DNA of 64,000 bases from Myxococcota bacterium. GTDB lineage: Bacteria > Myxococcota_A > Polyangia > HGW-17. A program made the translations under genes and the position numbers. Of this stretch, positions 2,126 to 64,000 are shown piece by piece (position 1 is the first letter of the stretch; every line of letters begins with the position of its first letter). The notes under the pieces were generated by a model. The model was not told the origin of the DNA. It worked only from the letters and a program-made list of their open reading frames with translations, and did not search any database. The stretch spans positions 21,250 through 85,249 of the forward strand of contig JAHJMN010000146.1 in assembly GCA_018821305.1 (NCBI GenBank), given 5' to 3'.

Positions 2126-3283
2126 TTACAGGCGGGATTTTATGGCGTCGATCTTGTCCGTGCGTTCCCAAGTGAAGTTCGGTTCTGTACGACCAAAGTG
2201 ACCATAGGCTGAAGTAGCTTTATATCTGGGTTTGAGAAGATCCAGTGTGCTGATGATGGCTCTAGGACGGCAATCAAAAATATCTTTTACGATCTGTTCA
2301 ATTTTTTCATCAGGAATAATACCTGTGCCATACGTTTCTACCATGAGAGAAACAGGGGTTGCAACGCCGATTGCATATGCAAGTTGAACCTGACAGCGTT
2401 TTGCAAGCCCAGCGGCCACAAGGTTTTTAGCAATATAGCGTGCCATGTAGCATGCACTGCGATCAACTTTGGAAGGATCTTTTCCGGAGAAAGCACCGCC
2501 ACCATGCGCCGCCATTCCACCGTATGTATCGACAATAATTTTACGTCCAGTGAGACCACTATCGCCCATGGGTCCACCTATGACGAATCTACCAGTCGGA
2601 TTAATGAAGAATTTAATATCTTTTGCCATGAGGTTAGCAGGGACGACTTTTTTCACGACTTCTTCGATGATTCCTTCTTCGATCTGCTTGTGGGTTACAT
2701 CAGGGCTGTGCTGACTTGATACAACGATGGTATTGATATCTTTGGGAATACCGTCAACGTAATTAACAGTTACCTGGGTTTTTCCATCGGGGCGGAGGAA
2801 GGGAAGTGTTCCGTCCTTACGAACTTGAGCCAGTTTATAAGCCAGTTTGTGGGCTTTCATTATTGGTAAGGGCATGAGTTCGGCGGTTTCATCAGATGCA
2901 TAACCGAACATCATTCCCTGATCGCCCGCTCCCTGGTCTTGCTCATAAAAACCGTGACCATTTACACCCATTGCAATATCAGTACTTTGCTGCTCTATTG
3001 CAGAAATAACTGAGCAAGTCTCATAGTCAAAGCCCATAGCACTTTCGGTATAGCCAATTTCTTTAACTGTTTGTCTGACTACATCAGGAAAATGAACATA
3101 TGTTGAAGTTGTTATTTCTCCGGCAATGAGAACCATACCGGTTTTGGTAAGGGTTTCACAAGCCACGCGGGCATTGGGATCCTTTTCGATAATACTGTCT
3201 AAAATGGCATCGGATACGGCATCACAGACCTTATCGGGATGTCCTTCAGTAACTGATTCTGAAGTAAAAAGATGAGAAGCCAT
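2126..3283 (-). CDS. metK: S-adenosylmethionine synthetase
   Basis: [58 protein letters not shown] hallmark motifs. Confidence 0.98.
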
Positions 3284-3457: not shown

Positions 3458-3610
3458 GTTACTGTCCTGAAATACGACATTTCGAAGCTAGCTACGAAAT
3501 TCAACACAGGACATTAAGAATGAAGACTTTGAAATTATTGTAGTGTTATGAATAGCATGTTTTCCTAAACATGCTCAATTTTTACAAAAATTGAATTTCA
3601 GAACACGAAC
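3458..3610 (+). repeat. 153-bp MITE-like structured repeat, family B (copy B1)
   Basis: Ungapped 153-bp alignment with 61191-61343 (+) and 16531-16683 (-); terminal inverted repeats GTTACTGTCCTGAAAT / ATTTCAGAACACGAAC; internal hairpin AGCATGTTT-TCCT-AAACATGCT. Confidence 0.85.
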
Positions 3611-3678: not shown

Positions 3679-5541
3679 ATGACAGATTTCGATGTAATAG
3701 TTGTTGGCGGTGGTCACGCCGGTATGGAAGCGTCATTTGCATCCGCACGGCTTGGTTGTCGAACGGGGCTGGTTACGCTGGATCCGGATCTTCTGGGGGA
3801 AATGCCCTGTAATCCTGCGGTGGGTGGAATTGCAAAAGGCCATCTGGTAAAGGAAATAGACGCTCTTGGTGGAATAATGGGTATTATGACGGATCTTGCG
3901 GCAATTCAATATCGTCGATTGAACACTCGCCGTGGTCCTGCGGTTAGAGCAACAAGGGCTCAAGTTGACAGACATCGCTATGTAAAAAATATGGTTGAAA
4001 GAGCCGAACTTCAGAGTAACCTGAGTGTTATTAAAGGCGAAGTCGTAGATGTTATTATCAAAAATGGTGCTGTTTGTGCAGTTAAAACAGCTGATGGCAG
4101 AGAGATCTCCACCGGAACTTGTGTAATAACTACAGGAACTTATCTTAATGGATTGTTGCACACGGGGTCAGTTATCACTGCTGGAGGAATTTATGGTTTA
4201 CCGCCGTCAAAGGGGCTCAGTGAAAGTCTGGAAAAAGCAGGGGCAAAAATAGCCCGACTTAAAACCGGAACTCCCGCAAGACTGGCAAAACATTCAATCG
4301 ATTTCACAAAACTGATTCCACAGGGTAGTGAAGACCATGTTCAACAATTCAGTTTCTATGGTCCACGGGGGGCACTGCCTCAGGTTGATTGCCACATAAC
4401 ATGGACAAATGAAATCACCCATAACCTTATATCATCCGGTTTTGCTACGGCTCCTCTTTTTAACGGGCAAATAAGTGGAACGGGGCCTCGCTATTGCCCA
4501 TCCATTGAAGATAAAGTCGCAAAATTTCCCGATCGCCATCGTCATCATGTCTTTTTAGAACCGGAAGGTCTTGATACGGACTGGATTTACCCAAATGGTG
4601 TCAGTACATCATTGCCCGCAGAACTCCAACTTTCTTTTCTTCGCTCTATTGAGGGACTTGAAAATGTTGAAATACGTCGTCCCGGTTATGCGGTGGAATA
4701 TGACAGCGCCGATTCAAAAGATCTGCAGCGCACACTGGAAACAAAATACTGTTCAGGGCTTTATCTTGCAGGTCAGATCAATGGCACAAGCGGTTATGAG
4801 GAAGCTGCAGCCCAGGGGCTTATTGCGGGAATTAACGCAGCTCTTCGCATCACCGGCAGGGAACCATACACCGTGGAACGCTGGGAAGGCTATATTGGTG
4901 TAATGATAGATGATCTGATCACAAAAGGCACCGATGAACCCTACCGTCTGTTTACAAGCCGCAGTGAATACCGTCTTTCTTTAAGGGAGGATAATGCCGA
5001 TGAACGGTTTACTCCGGCAGGTCGTGATTTGGGACTGATAGATGATGATGCATGGGCTGTATATAATAAACGTCGTGAACTGCTTGAATCCGAAACTCAG
5101 CGGCTTGAAAATATAAAAATTCCCAAAAGTGCTATAAGCGGGGTATGTGAAACTCTTGGAATTTCAAATCCCGACCGGGGAATGACTCTTTCGGAACTTC
5201 TCAAGCGACCGGAAGTTGCCTACCAGGATCTCATTGACCACAATATTATAGAACCCGTCCTTTCCGCTCAACTTGGAGAGCGAATGGAGAGTCGGATAAA
5301 ATATGAAGGATATCTTGCCCATCAGGAAAAAGAAATAGGTCGGCTAAAAAAAGTAAAATCTGTTAAGTTGCCAGAAGATTTTGATTTTGCAGCTGTTTCC
5401 GGTCTCAGAGTCGAATGGGTACAAAAACTGAAAAAAGCCCGACCTTCGAATCTTGCGGAAGTTTTAGCAGTTCCCGGAATTGCTCCCGCTGCTATTACAG
5501 CTATTGCTGCCCACCTGCGAACCGATAAAACTGAGAAGTAG
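3679..5541 (+). CDS. mnmG: tRNA uridine-5-carboxymethylaminomethyl(34) synthesis enzyme MnmG (GidA)
   Basis: FAD-binding [49 protein letters not shown]. Confidence 0.98.
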
Positions 5542-8449: not shown

Positions 8450-10723
8450 TTGTTTGTCAGTATGAGAAACTATAACCGTACTGCTACTGATACCGTTAGA
8501 AACAATCAACTTCCGCCGCCGCCACCGCCACCCCCACCATCCTACTCGAGGAAAACATCACCTCCATCTTCTTCATCCGCGGGAAGTTTTTTTACTGCAA
8601 TCATTGTTATTGCAGCCTTTTCGATGCTTGTTTACACACTGTTTAACAAGTTTGCAGGTACATCGGAGAATGGAAGTAAAAATGGGAAAAAATCAATAGT
8701 TGCGGGGAATAAAGATGATAAAGGAATAAAAAAATCAGATAGTAAAATAAAAAATCTTTCCGTGTCAATTGCTCCTTCCCTTATTAAGGAAGATGAAAAT
8801 ATACCGCCTGAACAATTAGTATATGTTGCTCAAAAAGGGAAACTCAAGGCTCAGCGAATTGAGGATGCTGTTAAATTTGGATATTCAATCATTGATTTAA
8901 GTGATGATTTTGCACCCTTTATTTTTACGGATGGACCTGATACGCCCAACAAATATCGAAAAACTTATTTAAACCTAGCAAATGATCGAACGGATGAAGA
9001 AGGAAAACCGCTGAAGGCAGGGGACCATAATTATGCTGAATTATATGGAATTATTCCATCTTTCGGTGTTATTGCTAGACGTTTTGTCGAGGATGACTCA
9101 AAAGAGTGCTTTAAAAAATTAAATTATAAATATTTTAATCAGGCAAATTATCACGTGACCTATGTTTCCCGCAGAGATCTGCGCAAAGAAATGGAAACAC
9201 TTAAAAAGGAAGCGGCAAAGTCAAAGAAGAAAAACAGTTATGCTTCCCGACGTCATCGACTTATCACTGCTAAATATTATATGGTTACCGAAGCTCAAAA
9301 ACGACTTAAATGCGAAGGGCTTTTGAGCTCATATTCTCCGGGTTATATTAATTATTCAACTATTGAAGCCATAAAGGATTTTGAGCACAAACACATGATT
9401 TTCGGATGGGGAATTCTTTCCGGCGACACAAGAAAAGGTTTTGGCCGAACGCCTCTGGAAAACAATTACAGATCATTACGCCGCGCAGTGCGGGAACGAA
9501 TAGTTCACAATCTTGGCTTAATTGAAGACGGAAGTGTTAATAAGGTAAAGGGATTGTCCGATGAGTTCAAGGATCGGGAAGGAAAAAGCCAGCGAATTCC
9601 AAATCTTGTGAAAACATACACGGATATCTTTATGAAGGAAATGGGACTTGAAACACCGGAAAAAGCGCTAAAGTTTTTTAAGGATTTAAAAGGCCGACCC
9701 TTTGAACGAATGAAAGTTGCTGTTAAATTTCCACCTCTTCCAGATTATTATGATAAGTTCAACTTCAGTGTTGTAATTGATCGTGGCGATGTTTATTACG
9801 ACGCTCCATTTGATGCCTCGGGAAAGAATCGCTTTCAGCCCGTTTCCCGCCGACCAAGATTGATACTCTACACTACCTGGAAGGGCCAAAAAGTCCCTCT
9901 GGTTCGCTGGGGAACAACCATCGGGGGCTGGCGAAGTGAATTTAAAGATGGCAAAGAATATTACGCCTACAAAGAGAGCGATGTTGGCCCAAGAATCTGG
10001 AAGGACATTTTTTCTGCACCTGTTTGGATTCCGCCGAAAAGTTCACCTCCATCAGGACTTCTCCGTTCACATCGAAATAAAGATGGCCGCTGGATTACCC
10101 GTGTGAACCGGGAAGAAATAGGCCCCAGTTATTTGAGTGCTTACGGACTTGTAGCTGCTCACCATATAAGAAATCGCTCTGACAGTGGAAAATCCATCTG
10201 GTTTGATAATGGAATCCGAACTCATGGCAGTATGGATTATATGAGTATTATGCGACGCCACAGCCATGGTTGTCACAGACTTCACAATCATCTGGCCGTG
10301 CGATTGTTTTCCTTTATACTTATGCATACGGACCATAAGCGGAAGGGACAGACTAAATTGATCTATACGAGATCGTTCAGTCATAAAAATAAAGATTACA
10401 AAATTAAGTTGGATACACGGGGGTATCAGTTCAGTTTGACAAAACCCATTGAAGTTGAAGTTATTCGGGGCAGGGTTTTAGGGAAATTAAAACAGCCTTT
10501 CAAAGGATATCTGCCAAAACCTGGTGTTGAGTACGAAAAAGATGATCCAAACTTATCCGGAGAAGTTGACAGCACAGATAAATCCGGAGCGGGCCAGGGA
10601 GCTGCAGAGGCTTCTGTTGAGACAAAAATTAAGGAAAAGGAAGAAAAAAGATCCGATGAAAAACTCCTAAAAAGTAACCGGAAACTTCCACCACCACCAA
10701 TGGGTGTCAAACCCCTCGACTAG
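8450..10723 (+). CDS. L,D-transpeptidase (YkuD-type) with N-terminal polyproline tract and TM anchor
   Basis: catalytic motif HGSMDYMSIMRRHSHGCHRLHN (SHGCxR); N-terminal PPPPPPPPP; single TM FFTAIIVIAAFSMLVYTLF. Confidence 0.85.
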   Translation: MFVSMRNYNRTATDTVRNNQLPPPPPPPPPSYSRKTSPPSSSSAGSFFTAIIVIAAFSMLVYTLFNKFAGTSENGSKNGKKSIVAGNKDDKGIKKSDSKIKNLSVSIAPSLIKEDENIPPEQLVYVAQKGKLKAQRIEDAVKFGYSIIDLSDDFAPFIFTDGPDTPNKYRKTYLNLANDRTDEEGKPLKAGDHNYAELYGIIPSFGVIARRFVEDDSKECFKKLNYKYFNQANYHVTYVSRRDLRKEMETLKKEAAKSKKKNSYASRRHRLITAKYYMVTEAQKRLKCEGLLSSYSPGYINYSTIEAIKDFEHKHMIFGWGILSGDTRKGFGRTPLENNYRSLRRAVRERIVHNLGLIEDGSVNKVKGLSDEFKDREGKSQRIPNLVKTYTDIFMKEMGLETPEKALKFFKDLKGRPFERMKVAVKFPPLPDYYDKFNFSVVIDRGDVYYDAPFDASGKNRFQPVSRRPRLILYTTWKGQKVPLVRWGTTIGGWRSEFKDGKEYYAYKESDVGPRIWKDIFSAPVWIPPKSSPPSGLLRSHRNKDGRWITRVNREEIGPSYLSAYGLVAAHHIRNRSDSGKSIWFDNGIRTHGSMDYMSIMRRHSHGCHRLHNHLAVRLFSFILMHTDHKRKGQTKLIYTRSFSHKNKDYKIKLDTRGYQFSLTKPIEVEVIRGRVLGKLKQPFKGYLPKPGVEYEKDDPNLSGEVDSTDKSGAGQGAAEASVETKIKEKEEKRSDEKLLKSNRKLPPPPMGVKPLD

Positions 10724-10911
10724 ACCCAATGCTGTTCGGTTAGTACTTTTTTGAAGTAAATAACCAATAAATACAACGTCATATAATAATTAAATGAAAA
10801 CAGTAAGTCAGGAAAATAGAAATTATTAGCTGGAACAGGATAATAAGGGGCTTTCCTCTAACGTATTTCTTTTAAAAAGCCACAATTATATTACTTCAGG
10901 ACACGAACAAT
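10724..10911. repeat. mosaic intergenic repeat, family C/D (contains the empty-site sequence of the nested insertion at 61191)
   Basis: CCCAATGCTGTTCGGTTAGT (also at 19083) and GAAGTAAATAACCAATAAATACAACGTCATATAATAATTA (also flanks 61191-61343); ends ...TTCAGGACACGAAC. Confidence 0.7.
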
Positions 10912-16396: not shown

Positions 16397-16530
16397 TCTG
16401 AACCTCTTTTCATGTACTTTTCAGAACTCGTCCGAAAAAGTATAACAATAAATATATTGAAACCATAAAACAAAAATCATACACAGTATAATTATATTAC
16501 TTTAGAGAACAACAGGACAGTAACTAAATC

Positions 16531-16683
16531 GATCGTGTCCTGAATTTCAATTTTTATCAAAATTGAGCATGTTTACGAAATCATGCTATTCAGAACACTG
16601 TAATAATTACAAAGTCTTCATTCTTAATGTCCTGTGTTAAATTAAGTCGTTAACTTGAAAAAATAGTATTACAGGACATTAAC
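16531..16683 (-). repeat. 153-bp MITE-like structured repeat, family B (copy B3, inverted)
   Basis: reverse complement aligns without gaps to 3458-3610 and 61191-61343; flanked by TAACTAAATC / TAACTAGATC (9/10 direct repeat). Confidence 0.85.
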
Positions 16684-16871: not shown

Positions 16872-19079
16872 TTGGATTTTAAAGAATCGATAGATATATT
16901 CTCAGGGTATTTGATTATGCTTATAGAACCGGAAAAAAGACGTATACGCCTCAGACAAGCTCCTCCTTTTCCCATGGGAGCATCTCATCACTACGGCGGA
17001 ACTCGATTTGTTGTGTTTTCCAGACATGCCACGGCAGTATCCCTTTTATTTTTTGACAACGCCAATGATGTGAATCCATCAAAAGAATGGAAATTGAGTC
17101 CCGATCTTCATCGTTTCGGTGATATCTGGTCCTGTTTTATTGAAGGGTCAAGAGAGGGGCAAATTTACGCATGGAAAATGGATGGGGATGAAGTTATTGA
17201 TGGAATAAAAAGTTTTACCCCCGAAGCTTTCCTTATTGATCCTTATACAAAAGCAATATGCGGACCATATGAATGGCGGGATGGACTTGGTTCCAGGGAT
17301 ATTCCCACTGCACCAAAATCAGTAGTAACATCACCAGTTTACAACTGGAAACGCACAATTTCTCCTAAAATACCAATGGAAAAGACCGTAATCTATGAAG
17401 TGCACTTGCGAGGATATTCAGCACACCCTTCGGCACAAGTGGATTTCCCCGGGACATTTGCAGGGTTCATTGAAAAAATAAAATGGATAAAAGAACTTGG
17501 CATAACAACCGTTGAACTTCTTCCTATTCAGGCTTTTGCTGAAAATGAAGTCATCAATCGAAATCCATTCACTGGGGAAAGGTTGAAAAACTACTGGGGA
17601 TATTCCACCATGGCCTTTATGGCAGTTCATCCACCGTATGGAGCTTTGCCCGGAGAAGAGAAAGAAGAATTCAGTCAATTCGTAAGGACTCTTCATGACA
17701 ACGGACTTGAAGTTATTTTAGATATTGTTTTCAACCATACAGCAGAAGGCAACCAGACGGGGCCCGTTTTAAGTTTTCGCGGCCTTGATAACTCCATCTA
17801 CTACATGATGGATACGGAAAATAAATGTTATCTGAACTACTCCGGCTGCGGAAATACACTTAACTGCAATCATCCCGTGGTGAGAGATTTCATTATGGAC
17901 GTTTTGCGTTACTGGGTGGTGGAAATGGGAGTTGACGGATTTCGATTCGATCTGGCAAGTATACTTGGCAGGGATCAGGATGGAAATCTTCTGGATAATC
18001 CTCCCCTTGTGGAAAGGATTGCAGAAGATCCGATACTGCGAAATGTAAAAATAATAGCAGAAGCATGGGATGCGGGCGGCGCGTATCAGGTGGGAAGTTT
18101 CCCAGGTACACGCTGGGCGGAGTGGAATGGTCGTTTCCGTGATGATATTCGAGCTTTCTGGCTCACGGAAGGTGGAAGTATTGCGGATTTTGCCACAAGA
18201 CTTGCGGGAAGCGAAGATCTTTACGGCTCATCGGGTAGAACTCCTCTGCATAGCATTAATTTTGTAGCGAGTCACGATGGATTTTCCCTGAGAGATCTTG
18301 TTTCTTATGATTATAAACACAATGAAATAAATGGGGAAAATAACCGTGATGGTGACAATCATAACCTGAGTGATAATCATGGTATTGAAGGCTATACACA
18401 TGATCATGAAATCAGGAATCTGCGGCTCCGTCAGATGAAAAACCTACTTCTGACCCTTTTCGTCTCTCAGGGAGTTCCAATGATTTACTCCGGAGACGAA
18501 TATGGCCATACCAAACTTGGAAACAACAACACCTACTGTCAGGATAACCCTGTTACATGGTTTGACTGGCGGCTCACAGGTAATTCCCTTGTTGATGAAT
18601 TTACAGTGAGCGGATTTGCAGATCCCCTTGATGTGGATATTGAAGAAGGTCGTCACATCACAGATTTTATCAGAAACCTCATAAGTTTTCGTAATAACCA
18701 TCCACATTTACGCCGCAAAACATTTTTTTCAGGCTCTATAGTAAAAAATTCACCATCTCCATTTTCTGGTATGCGAGATATCATGTGGATAAATGAAAAA
18801 ATGGAAGAAATCGACTGGAGCTACCCGAGAAAGTTTATTGGTGTCATTCTAGGGCCTGTCATTGAGAATGATTGTGTTAATCTTCCGGTTCAAATGTACT
18901 TTAATGCCACGGATGAAGATATCGTTGCGGTGATAAGAAGTATTCCCGGTTACCGCTGGAAAATCATGTTTGATACCTCAGATATGAGGATTTCCGACAA
19001 CTCAGATCGCATACTCGAAGATACCATAATTACAGTAAAATCCAGAAGTTCCGTAGTAGCTTCGCTGGTTAAAGTATGA
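16872..19079 (+). CDS. glgX: glycogen debranching enzyme (isoamylase, GH13)
   Basis: VIYEVHLRGYSAHPS, WGYSTMAFMAVHPPYG, VDGFRFDLASILGRD, INFVASHDGFSLRDLVSY; true start may be ATG at 16917. Confidence 0.95.
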   Translation: MDFKESIDIFSGYLIMLIEPEKRRIRLRQAPPFPMGASHHYGGTRFVVFSRHATAVSLLFFDNANDVNPSKEWKLSPDLHRFGDIWSCFIEGSREGQIYAWKMDGDEVIDGIKSFTPEAFLIDPYTKAICGPYEWRDGLGSRDIPTAPKSVVTSPVYNWKRTISPKIPMEKTVIYEVHLRGYSAHPSAQVDFPGTFAGFIEKIKWIKELGITTVELLPIQAFAENEVINRNPFTGERLKNYWGYSTMAFMAVHPPYGALPGEEKEEFSQFVRTLHDNGLEVILDIVFNHTAEGNQTGPVLSFRGLDNSIYYMMDTENKCYLNYSGCGNTLNCNHPVVRDFIMDVLRYWVVEMGVDGFRFDLASILGRDQDGNLLDNPPLVERIAEDPILRNVKIIAEAWDAGGAYQVGSFPGTRWAEWNGRFRDDIRAFWLTEGGSIADFATRLAGSEDLYGSSGRTPLHSINFVASHDGFSLRDLVSYDYKHNEINGENNRDGDNHNLSDNHGIEGYTHDHEIRNLRLRQMKNLLLTLFVSQGVPMIYSGDEYGHTKLGNNNTYCQDNPVTWFDWRLTGNSLVDEFTVSGFADPLDVDIEEGRHITDFIRNLISFRNNHPHLRRKTFFSGSIVKNSPSPFSGMRDIMWINEKMEEIDWSYPRKFIGVILGPVIENDCVNLPVQMYFNATDEDIVAVIRSIPGYRWKIMFDTSDMRISDNSDRILEDTIITVKSRSSVVASLVKV

Positions 19080-19414
19080 CTATACCCAATGCTGGTCGGT
19101 TAGTGAACTTCCGAGTAAATTAGTCAATAAATACAATCTTGTAAAACAATTACAGGCAGACAGGAATTCAGGAAAACAGGGGTCAGGAGCAAGGATCGAA
19201 ATTTAAAAAGTGAATATTTGCTTTCAACCTTTGTAATTTTCCATTGATATTGAATGGTTAACCGCTGATCCTGATCCTGTTTGCCTGACTACCCGAGTCC
19301 CTGTTAAAAAATTACAGGTAGACAGTGAATCAGTAGCAGGAACAGGACAATCAACTCTTTCCTGAAGATTTTCTTTAGAATAACTCACAATCGTATTACT
19401 CAGGAAGCGGTCTA
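19080..19414. repeat. mosaic intergenic repeat, family C/D
   Basis: CCCAATGCTGGTCGGTTAG shared with 10726; GACCGAAAT/TCGAAATTTAAAAAGTGAATATTT and ...TCCTGAAG..TTTCTTTAGAATAA..CAATCGTATTACTCAGGAAGCGGTCTA shared with 60911-61147. Confidence 0.75.
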
Positions 19415-20238: not shown

Positions 20239-20559
20239 AAAAATCCACTGGTCTTTTAATAATATCTATCAAATCAATAGTTTTACATAAATATAGAGAA
20301 AACACAGGAACTTAATATTAAAAAAAAATTAGATTATTTGTTACGTATGTTGAGTTTCAGATACGAACTGCCTTGAAAATCCTCTAAATTAATGGCAAGT
20401 TATGGCACTGAATCGCCTGTCCGGTAAAGACCCTCAAGGTAACTCACTGGCTTTCGATTCTTTATTTTTTAAGAATTGACGTTCAGTATTTCAGGTATTT
20501 CTACTTTCTACCCGGGGGGTTAACTGTTTTCCTGAACTACTGGGTTGTCAACATTCGGG

Positions 20560-20680
20560 GTCTTTTGTGAATTTATTAAAAATTCTATTCGGCCACTACT
20601 AATATTTTCCGTATCTCTTAGTCTCTATCCGGACTATAAAGATGCAGAAAACAGTGTTTTTTCGAATTTCCGGATAGAGA
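20560..20680. repeat. mosaic intergenic repeat, family A (copy A3), directly upstream of glyQ
   Basis: TTCGGCCACTACTAATATTTTCCGTATCTCTTAG linker; second hairpin with perfect 12-bp arms TCTCTATCCGGA (20622) / TCCGGATAGAGA (20669). Confidence 0.7.
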
Positions 20681-20697
20681 TTAAACGGAGGTCTGAA

Positions 20698-37149: not shown

Positions 37150-37561
37150 TTAATCCGCGGATCTCCGGTGCCCTGATTTCTTAACAGGGGAGTCAGGAAG
37201 TCAGGAAAACAGGATCAGGCTCAGGTCATAAACATTCAATATCAAAGCATAATTACAAATGGCAGGATGAAAACAAGTACTTTTCCCGTTTCGATCCTTT
37301 TATTCCGAGAGCGGTCTAGACCGCTTCCTGATTAATACGATTGTGACTCGTTTAAAAAAAATGCTTCAGGAAAGACCCCTGTTTTCCTGTTCCTGCTACT
37401 GATTTCCTGGTTACCTGAAATATTTTAACAGGGACTCAGGAAGTCAGGAAAACAGCGACAGGCTCAGGTCATAAACATCCAATATCAATGTAAAATTACA
37501 AAGACTGGAAGAATATATTCACTGTTCTACTCTCGATCCTTTTATTCCGAGAGCGGTCTAG
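37150..37561. repeat. mosaic intergenic repeat, family D; two direct units (about 37180-37320 and 37430-37561) with an inverted module between
   Basis: TTAACAGGG..TCAGGAAGTCAGGAAAACAG..CAGGCTCAGGTCATAAACATNCAATATCAA...CGATCCTTTTATTCCGAGAGCGGTCTAG appears twice; perfect palindrome GCGGTCTAGACCGC at 37311-37324. Confidence 0.8.
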
Positions 37562-37582
37562 CAATATTTACAGCACCTTGCG

Positions 37583-37643
37583 GTTACTGTCTTGAATAAT
37601 AAACTGACGAAAAATTTGATTTCTTGTATTTCAGGACAGTAAC
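37583..37643. repeat. 61-bp hairpin repeat, family E (copy E1)
   Basis: GTTACTGTCTTGA...TTTCAGGACAGTAAC; same length and interior GACGAAAAATTTGA as 41560-41620; preceded by CAGCACCTTGCG. Confidence 0.8.
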
Positions 37644-41433: not shown

Positions 41434-41484
41434 TTCTTATCCTTCCTGACCCTTTGAACAGGTAGGTCGATATGAATTCGTTCG

Positions 41485-41545
41485 TGTCCGGAAATTCGCT
41501 TCGCGAAGAATTTTATTAAAAATTCTATCCGGCCACTATAATAAA
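41485..41545. repeat. mosaic intergenic repeat, family A (copy A4), fused to family E copy E2
   Basis: GTTCGTGTCCGGAAATTCGCTTCGCGAAGAATTTTATTAAAAATTCTATCCGGCCACTA. Confidence 0.75.
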
Positions 41546-41559
41546 TTCAACACCTTGCG

Positions 41560-41620
41560 GTTACTGTCCTGAGCAAAAATCGGGCGAAAAATTTGAATTT
41601 CGGTATTTCAGGACAGTAAC
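41560..41620. repeat. 61-bp hairpin repeat, family E (copy E2)
   Basis: perfect 13-bp arms GTTACTGTCCTGA / TCAGGACAGTAAC; preceded by CAACACCTTGCG. Confidence 0.8.
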
Positions 41621-41961
41621 GAATTCAAGTTACTGACGGTGTGTAATCACTTTTTATGCCATTCTTTTGCTATTGTATTTTGTATACGGTTTCAATTTGC
41701 AATTAAGACGAGTTTTAATATAAATTCTGTTGTAATAGTTGTATAAAAACAATATCTTGAAGTTTATGATCTTAAAATGATCTTTATGGAAAATTAAAAA
41801 TCTTTATTTTTAAATGGTTGCCAAACAATACTTCTTTTTTAAAAGTTCCCATGAACTTACATCGATATTTAGACAATACCGTCCGCATATGGTCTTTTTT
41901 TTTTCAAGTTTTAATGATACATTCCCACCGTATTTTTATTGTTTTAACAGGAGTTGAAAAT

Positions 41962-60292: not shown

Positions 60293-60912
60293 AATCCTTC
60301 CTGTGTCTGTCATTGGTTCTTCTTTTTGCATGTAAATCAGAAAAAACTGAAGTCTTTCGCAATGATCTTGACGTTATTTCTCGTATGAAAAAACGCAAAA
60401 TGCTTAAATGTGCTAAAAAAACAGTGTGGTACATTGATAATGATGGAGATGGATACGGCGACGACAAGAAAAGTCAGGAAGCCTGTTCCCAGCCGGATGG
60501 ATATGTTGCTACCGGTGGAGATTGCGATGATTCTGATGAACGCGTACACCCGAAACAGACTGAATATTTTTCTATTCCGCGTAAAGATGGTTCCTTTGAC
60601 TTTGATTGTGATGGAAAACAAACTCCAAGGCTCACTGTGAGAGCCTATTGTGAAGTACATGCAAATAAAAAGGGATGCAACCATTCCAGTGGATGGGATA
60701 TAAAAGCCTCTCAAAAAATACCGGACTGTGGTGTCCCGGAAAACTGGGCATGGAATGAATGTAGAACTGAATTGCTGGATGAAAAAGCAACTACCGATGC
60801 GACTGCTCAAGCCAAAACTCCGTCATCTCCCATTGTAAAACCCCCTTCAAAAGCTGTGCATCAGTGCTGGTCTGGAAAACTTCAGTGGAAAAAAAGACAA
60901 CTTTGTCGCTAG
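60289..60912 (+). CDS. lipoprotein with MopE-like putative metal-binding motif
   Basis: WYIDNDGDGYGDDKKSQEACSQPDGYVATGGDCDDSDERVHPKQTEY; ATGA overlap with the upstream gene. Confidence 0.85.
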   Translation: MKSFLCLSLVLLFACKSEKTEVFRNDLDVISRMKKRKMLKCAKKTVWYIDNDGDGYGDDKKSQEACSQPDGYVATGGDCDDSDERVHPKQTEYFSIPRKDGSFDFDCDGKQTPRLTVRAYCEVHANKKGCNHSSGWDIKASQKIPDCGVPENWAWNECRTELLDEKATTDATAQAKTPSSPIVKPPSKAVHQCWSGKLQWKKRQLCR

Positions 60913-61502
60913 ACCGCTTCATGAGTAAAAGGACCGAAATCTAAAAAGTGAATATTTACGGCCAGTCTTTGTAATTATATATTGATATTAGATGTTTATG
61001 ACCTAAACCTGTTACCTGTTTGCCTGACTTGAGTTCCTGTTTAAGATTTTAGGTAACCAGAAAATCAGTTGCAGTAACAGGACAATCAGGCTCATTCCTG
61101 AAGCATTTCTTTAGAATAATTTTCAATCGTATAACTCAGGAAGCGGAATAGAAACTATACTAATCAGTTAGTGAATGTTTGAAGTAAATAGTTCGTGTCC
61201 TGTAATACCAAATTTTCAAGTTTACACCAAATTTGTACACAGGACATTAAGAATGAAGACCTTGAAATTATTATAGTGTTCTGAATAGTATGTTTTCCTA
61301 AACATGCTCAATTTTGATAAAAATTGAATTTCAGGACACGAACTAAATAATCAATAAATACAACGTCATATAATAATTACAGATACACAGGAAATCAGGA
61401 AACAGGGGCAGGTTCAGGTCATAACCATTAAACATCAATGTAAATTTAGAAAGGATGGAAGCAGAAATGCTCGTTCGATTCTTTTAAACAGGACGCAGTC
61501 TA
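60910..61502. repeat. composite mosaic repeat (family C/D) carrying a nested family B element
   Basis: left terminus TAGACCGCTTC..., right terminus ...GACGCAGTCTA; internal modules inverted relative to each other; family B copy at 61191-61343. Confidence 0.75.
61191..61343 (+). mobile_element. 153-bp MITE-like element, family B (copy B2), nested in family C/D repeat with TAAATA direct repeats
   Basis: 12-bp perfect terminal inverted repeats GTTCGTGTCCTG / CAGGACACGAAC; TAAATA at 61185-61190 and 61344-61349; apparent empty site GAAGTAAATAACCAATAAATACAACG at 10753. Confidence 0.75.
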
Positions 61503-63843: not shown

Positions 63844-63845
63844 TA

Positions 63846-63881
63846 TTTCAGGACATTAACTAACTAGTTCGTGTCCTGAAA
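63846..63881. repeat. outward-facing pair of repeat termini forming an inverted repeat
   Basis: TTTCAGGACA-TTAACTAACTAGTTCG-TGTCCTGAAA, 10-bp perfect arms, directly after a stop codon. Confidence 0.75.
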
Positions 63882-64000
63882 TTAAGTTAGCGTAAATAAA
63901 AGGAAAAAAGTAAAAAAAATAGAGGGGTTTTCAACTTTTTTGATCGACAAAATACACAGAATCATGTATTATATCGTTGAAATTATTAAAGAAAGGAGAA

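Follow-up and report, generated by a model that had tools for sequence, protein, structure and literature searches.

Several families of non-autonomous DNA transposons (MITEs) are known in prokaryotes, such as Correia/NEMIS in Neisseria, RUP in the pneumococcus, QMITE2 in Coxiella and Chunjie in Geobacter (PMC10969869, PMC2229807). The two families of repeats that we describe here in a myxococcotal genome, B and C, resemble them in being shorter than 500 bp and A+T-rich, in their terminal inverted repeats and target duplications, in their intergenic position and strong predicted fold, and in the presence of an insertion sequence with the same ends as the (here probable) mobiliser. They are unlike the known MITEs in sequence, in their 6-bp TANNTA duplication, in their probable ISNCY partner and unusually constant length, in being built of two palindromic units that contain the terminal repeat again as inner copies, and in the fact that more than one third of the copies stand in arrays with one common duplication. 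The kind of element is thus well known while the family is new, in an unusually clear and abundant form, whose remaining interest lies in the inner ends and in self-adjacent insertion. The label ISNCY means "not classified yet", so that the name says little on mechanism. ISRm17 of Sinorhizobium meliloti is assigned to the ISDol1 group of ISNCY (PMC10194956), and our search of the literature on MITEs of ISNCY elements gave nothing relevant.

We are confident that family B is a MITE of 153 bp, most likely moved in trans by a resident DDE transposase, probably of the ISNCY family. Its ends, the length and consensus of its target duplication, its empty sites, the terminal repeat of about 16 bp that it has in common with an insertion sequence, and the intact transposase gene are established. 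There are three copies in the window (the whole stretch of DNA that was analysed, 64,000 nucleotides). Copy 1 (3458-3610, +) lies between metK (2126-3283, -) and mnmG (3679-5541, +) and is without a clean target duplication; copy 2 (16531-16683, -) has, exactly 6 bp past its end, the terminal repeat GTTACTGTCCTG of another, truncated element (16513-16524, -); and copy 3 (61191-61343, +), whose ends are exact to the base, is flanked by TAAATA at 61185-61190 and at 61344-61349 (both +), a duplication read from the sequence and from empty sites. The gapless end-to-end alignment of these three copies and the near-invariance of their 3' two-thirds, both noticed in a preliminary description of this DNA, are confirmed over 153 columns, and the coordinates given there turn out to be the exact ends of a transposable element. 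The two internal hairpins named at that time are both present, paired in 98-99.7% of cells in the 43 copies from which the covariance model of B was built (the three window copies score 164-183 bits with this model, E 1e-36 to 1e-40), and the rigid length extends to the whole genome, 65 of the 72 collected B copies being exactly 153 bp long, in a collection that accepted only 130-162 bp and therefore under-counts truncated copies. What the earlier reading did not contain is the left hairpin TTAATGTCCTGT / ACAGGACATTAA of the B copies, their terminal inverted repeats, the 6-bp target duplications, the copies of family C and the end of an insertion sequence at 63867-64000. With at most 3 mismatches allowed, the 5.22-Mb genome has 149 matches to a 22-nt core and 0 to its reversed control, and TGTCCTG is found 26 times in the window versus 5.9 expected, which indicates that the repeats are not due to chance; the terminal motif TAGTTANTGTCCTG has 334 exact occurrences in the genome.

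Target duplications were analysed in copies collected from the genome (72 of B and 74 of C). Exact 6-bp duplications flank 32 of 69 B copies (3.9 by shuffling) and 36 of 70 C copies (5.6 by shuffling), counts that were not equalled in any of 5,000 shuffles. Duplications of 7 bp are rare (n=2, both in family C) and none of 8 bp or more was seen among the collected copies of both families. As in other MITEs the duplication has a constant length, here 6 bp, and its consensus is TANNTA. Empty sites are available too: the host of copy 3 is another repeat, and five copies of that repeat (window 10718-10815, L231, L252, L173 and L134) have no element at the joint and one TAAATA. The relative in the window (10718-10815, +) can be aligned with the host over the joint for 98 nt at 79.6% identity and without a gap, its single TAAATA being at 10757-10762. 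These five empty relatives fix the element as 61191-61343, in agreement with the preliminary description. Mosaic repeats of several hundred bp are seen between genes in the window (10718-10819, 19078-19414, 37188-37562, 60908-61152 and 61340-61452; for example GACTAGACCCAATGCTG.. and ..TCAGGAAGCGGTCTAG), and it is one copy of this mosaic family that hosts MITE copy 3.

The B element ends in inverted repeats, GTT..TGTCCTG and CAGGACACGAAC, which provide the terminal inverted repeats of a MITE (GTTNNTGTCCTG / CAGGACACGAAC), and its small size, 153 bp, leaves no space for a transposase gene. It is made of two palindromic units and a linker of about 25 bp, and the inner arms repeat the end sequence. 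Unit 1 begins with GTTAATGTCCTGT and, past a loop of about 37 nt, continues with ACAGGACATTAAG, which is the start inverted; the linker (AATGAAGACCTTGAAATTATTGTAG, about 25 nt) follows; and in unit 2 GTGTTCTGAA pairs with TTCAGGACAC around the two hairpins already mentioned, the element ending with CAGGACACGAAC. In copy 3 the left terminal repeat GTTCGTGTCCTG (61191-61202, +) is the 5' arm of hairpin 1, whose 3' arm is the inner inverted copy ACAGGACATTAA (61239-61250, +), one of the most conserved segments (pi 0.032), and the right terminal repeat CAGGACACGAAC occupies 61332-61343 (+). The sister family C, 142 bp long, has the plan of B in different letters (GTTACTGTCCTG..CAGGACAGTAAC, CGCAAGGTGTTGAA.., AGTGGCCTGT..ACAGGACACGAAC), with hairpins GGATTTT/AAAATCC and TTCGC/GCGAA, and there is a chimaera (L089) whose first unit is of C type and whose second unit is of B type. 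Five C copies lie on the minus strand of the window: an intact one of 141 bp (41480-41620, 174 bits) between GAATTC duplications at 41474-41479 and 41621-41626, three decayed ones at 1864-2006 (88 bits), 1609-1774 (66.9 bits) and 20553-20681 (57.7 bits), and one that is decayed or truncated at 37545-37643 (79.3 bits).

The probable parent of these MITEs is an insertion sequence, probably of the ISNCY family, whose left end is at 63867-64000 (+), preceded by its left target duplication TAACTA (63861-63866, +) and, exactly 6 bp away, by the terminal repeat of another truncated element (63845-63860, -). Its remainder, with the transposase gene, is found at the start of contig C216 (L106/L111), the first 78 nt of which are identical to the last 78 nt of the window and of its contig; once joined over this overlap the insertion sequence measures 1,679 bp, a length composed from two contigs, no complete copy with both flanks having been seen in one piece. 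The left end is GTTCGTGTCCTGAAAT at window position 63867, written on as GTTCGTGTCCTGAAATTAAG.., and is present in contigs C83, C182 and C172 as well. The right end, downstream of the transposase gene, is TATTTCAGGACAGTAAC, then TATTTA, and corresponds to the terminal repeat of family C. In the genome the search for DDE_Tnp_1 genes found this one alone. It encodes an uninterrupted transposase of the DDE type (473 aa) that matches the NCBIfam model for ISNCY (NF033593) with E 1.8e-87 and 293.9 bits, under the cut-off of 325, and that is 31% identical to an annotated ISNCY transposase, the D-D-E positions being conserved by eye. The genome thus holds, as expected for a MITE, an autonomous partner with matching ends. 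Only the terminal 16 bp or so are common to the insertion sequence and to families B and C, their inner sequences being different, so that the MITEs did not arise from it by internal deletion alone. Besides this limited likeness, some facts weigh against our reading: the transposase score under the cut-off, copy 1 without a clean duplication, the splitting of the insertion sequence over contigs, and inner stems more conserved than the loop, beyond neutral decay of one source copy.

The closest annotated plasmid matches to the transposase are ISNCY elements of Marinobacter and Sinorhizobium, at about 28-31% identity. ISRm17 and these ISNCY relatives are like the parent in a transposase homologous over most of its length, in termini that start with GT, in a TA-N2/3-TA duplication and in self-adjacent junctions; they are unlike it in the letters of the termini, GTGCCC(A/G)TCC versus GTT..TGTCCTG, and, for Sinorhizobium, in a 7-bp duplication. 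Their ends read GTGCCCATCC or GTGCCCGTCC and their duplications are TAGCTA in Marinobacter, TAGGCTA and TAGACTA in S. meliloti and TAGTCTA in S. fredii. The TANNTA of the parent fits this ISDol1-group type (TAGCTA, TAGNCTA), and the GT termini together with the TA-N2/3-TA duplication support a place for the parent near the ISDol1 group, though its score is below the family cut-off. The parent is probably an ISDol1/ISRm17-like member of ISNCY. The exact ends, the 6-bp duplications, the empty sites and the agreement of the ends with those of an insertion sequence bear out the recent mobility suggested in the preliminary description.

The model that we favour is as follows. The transposase would recognise the terminal repeats, GTTAATGTCCTG on the left and CAGGACACGAAC (which is GTTCGTGTCCTG inverted) on the right, would excise or copy the element, and would insert it at TANNTA with duplication of 6 bp; we infer that the MITE is moved by this enzyme, whether by cut-and-paste or not. 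One derivative of 61 bp consists of the first unit alone between exact TAATTA duplications (L109), and the inner arms can act as ends because this derivative has a 6-bp duplication of its own; two other short derivatives have exact duplications as well, TATTTA and TATCTA (L187), the range of such short forms being 52-62 bp. New insertions would often enter the duplication beside an existing element, and arrays with one common 6-bp spacer would result. As for the hairpins, their conservation is best accounted for by transposase binding, by their use as ends and by repeated amplification from successful source copies, and less well by a discrete RNA.

Among the 140 copies with both flanks, there are 52 (37%) for which the end of a further element lies at a distance of exactly 6 bp. 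Neighbours in an array often belong to different families (contig C61, for instance, has C-C-B, all with TAATTA), which speaks for repeated insertion rather than tandem duplication. The insertion sequence has four left ends in this assembly, and two of them likewise lie 6 bp from an element end. Similar junctions are seen in the relatives: three ISNCY elements lie head to tail on S. meliloti pHRC017 (NC_019313.1, 160871-165546, L267), starting at 160871, 162541 and 164212, with 7-bp TA..TA junctions, and in Marinobacter (NZ_CP092285.1 near 43400; L265:1040-1112) a second right end adjoins an ISNCY element over TAGCTA. The array counts suggest that insertion prefers self-adjacent sites. One could go further and combine a "four-ended" MITE, in which each of the two palindromic units has a transposase end and its inverted inner copy and the hairpins are selected as the transposase uses the inner copies, with a general preference of the ISDol1 group for the duplication beside an existing element; we propose this joint reading tentatively, being ourselves rather doubtful of it. 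If it were true, arrays with one 6-bp spacer would be a behaviour of the ISDol1 group, present in three bacterial lineages, and the self-adjacent arrays in these three lineages lead to a testable prediction on target choice.

The preliminary description had also raised the possibility of selection for an RNA or DNA structure. B and C would then be structured non-coding RNA genes or cis-regulatory RNAs, kept by selection on a fold in which one hairpin unit is followed by another that forms a three-way junction, and this we regard as very unlikely. It is true that the elements fold stably (z -3.8 to -6.5 versus mononucleotide shuffles) and that the loop of hairpin 1 is much more variable than the stems and the core. 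In B, this loop has a mean pairwise diversity of 0.252, compared with 0.061 for the left terminus, 0.038 for hairpin 2 and 0.032 for the inner arm; in C the order is that of B for the loop (0.183), inner arm (0.022) and terminus (0.050), with hairpin 2 at 0.081. A loop so far above the stems is not what uniform neutral decay of one source copy would give, and the constraint on stems and core is real. The covariation analysis proposed in the preliminary description gave a divided answer. Family B comes close to failing it, with compensatory change on both sides in 2 of 1,634 cells, whereas the hairpin and stem arms of C do covary, with few main states: its hairpin arms are perfect in 62 of 70 copies versus 25 by shuffling, mainly as three matched versions of 33, 18 and 11 copies, and its stem is matched in 60 of 70 versus 41, in two main versions (48 and 12 copies). 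These cells count sequences, not events, and the compensatory states of C are no more than suggestive, as a few lineages, or template-switch correction of imperfect palindromes, could mimic compensation. Against an RNA speak, besides the near absence of covariation in B, the gene contexts, which are of all sorts (45 codirectional, 14 divergent and 16 convergent, with an orientation of 28 versus 17 and no clear bias), a genome of the same genus that has no copies, the clear transposon anatomy, and Rfam, in which no family matches. Selection for a structure has partial support, from the variable loop and the covarying arms of C, with compensation nearly absent in B. Inner arms used as transposition ends explain part of the constraint without an RNA function, and the conservation is best read as related to mobility, an RNA role not being needed.

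Two other mobile systems have to be weighed against the MITE. The junctions CAGGACACGAAC-TATTTA-GTTAATGTCCTG resemble the 12-6-12 core site of a site-specific (tyrosine) recombinase, of which the elements would be cassettes; the arrays share a 6-bp centre, and the 52 of 140 copies with an end exactly 6 bp off would fit. However, the 6 bp differ from target to target and arise by duplication of target sequence, so that the empty sites with their single TAAATA largely refute this idea, the DDE insertion sequence carries the same ends and duplications, and the same junctions are formed by other ISNCY elements. We hold it to be even less credible than an RNA. Least credible of all are REP-like palindromes spread by a Y1 (RAYT/IS200) transposase, in spite of the richness of the elements in hairpins and of three Y1_Tnp genes in the genome. 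Y1 transposons make no target duplication, but 6-bp duplications are present here, contrary to the insertion without duplication that characterises REP/RAYT. One of the three Y1 loci has no terminal repeat nearby, the other two are near ordinary copies or ends, no Y1 gene being recognised as bounded by them, and a DDE insertion sequence that has these very ends is enough to explain the data. We therefore reject the Y1 transposase as a partner of the MITE, on the target duplications and on the surroundings of the Y1 loci.

With covariance models, at least 78 full-length copies of B and at least 82 of C were counted in the genome, and none of either family in 38 related genomes, including one of the same genus (G001). 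In the latter the terminal motif is absent, and the insertion sequence is represented by a decayed relative, matching at 78% over 97 nt of the left end. Among the genomes sampled, only this species shows the expansion. No ORF of at least 200 codons (ORFs called mechanically) contains any of the 75 copies tested, and there was no match in phages and plasmids by DNA searches or in viral contigs by an exact-core scan. We thus have a high-copy MITE family with well-resolved ends, a clear target rule and a probable mobilising transposase, for the loosely classified ISNCY. It is also a warning for scans for new RNAs, as repeats of constant length with hairpins and a conserved core may be no more than MITEs.

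A few further observations can be added. Many contigs end inside copies of B or C (C202:12708-12853, C200:2-154, C19:1-153, C180:47558-47696, C119:62751-62889), so that the true copy number is probably greater than counted, and these repeats probably help to break the assembly. A second small hairpin-bearing insert of about 65-70 bp (TCTCACTGTTTTC..GAAAAC.. to ..TTTTAGAC), apparently with a GAC duplication, is seen at the same point of the inner arm in one B and one C copy (L025/L100 on contig C131 and L081 on contig C4), and L081 has a further hairpin-rich insert in its linker. Beside an IS200-type transposase, at L107:2133-2574, the units SFSEAEM and MEPLLFRSGN recur, and their two frames overlap. 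Finally, B or C fragments at two places (L043:175-300; L090 near 1502-1720) lead without a break into the starts of apparent signal-peptide or lipoprotein genes, and debris of these elements may supply leaders or start regions.
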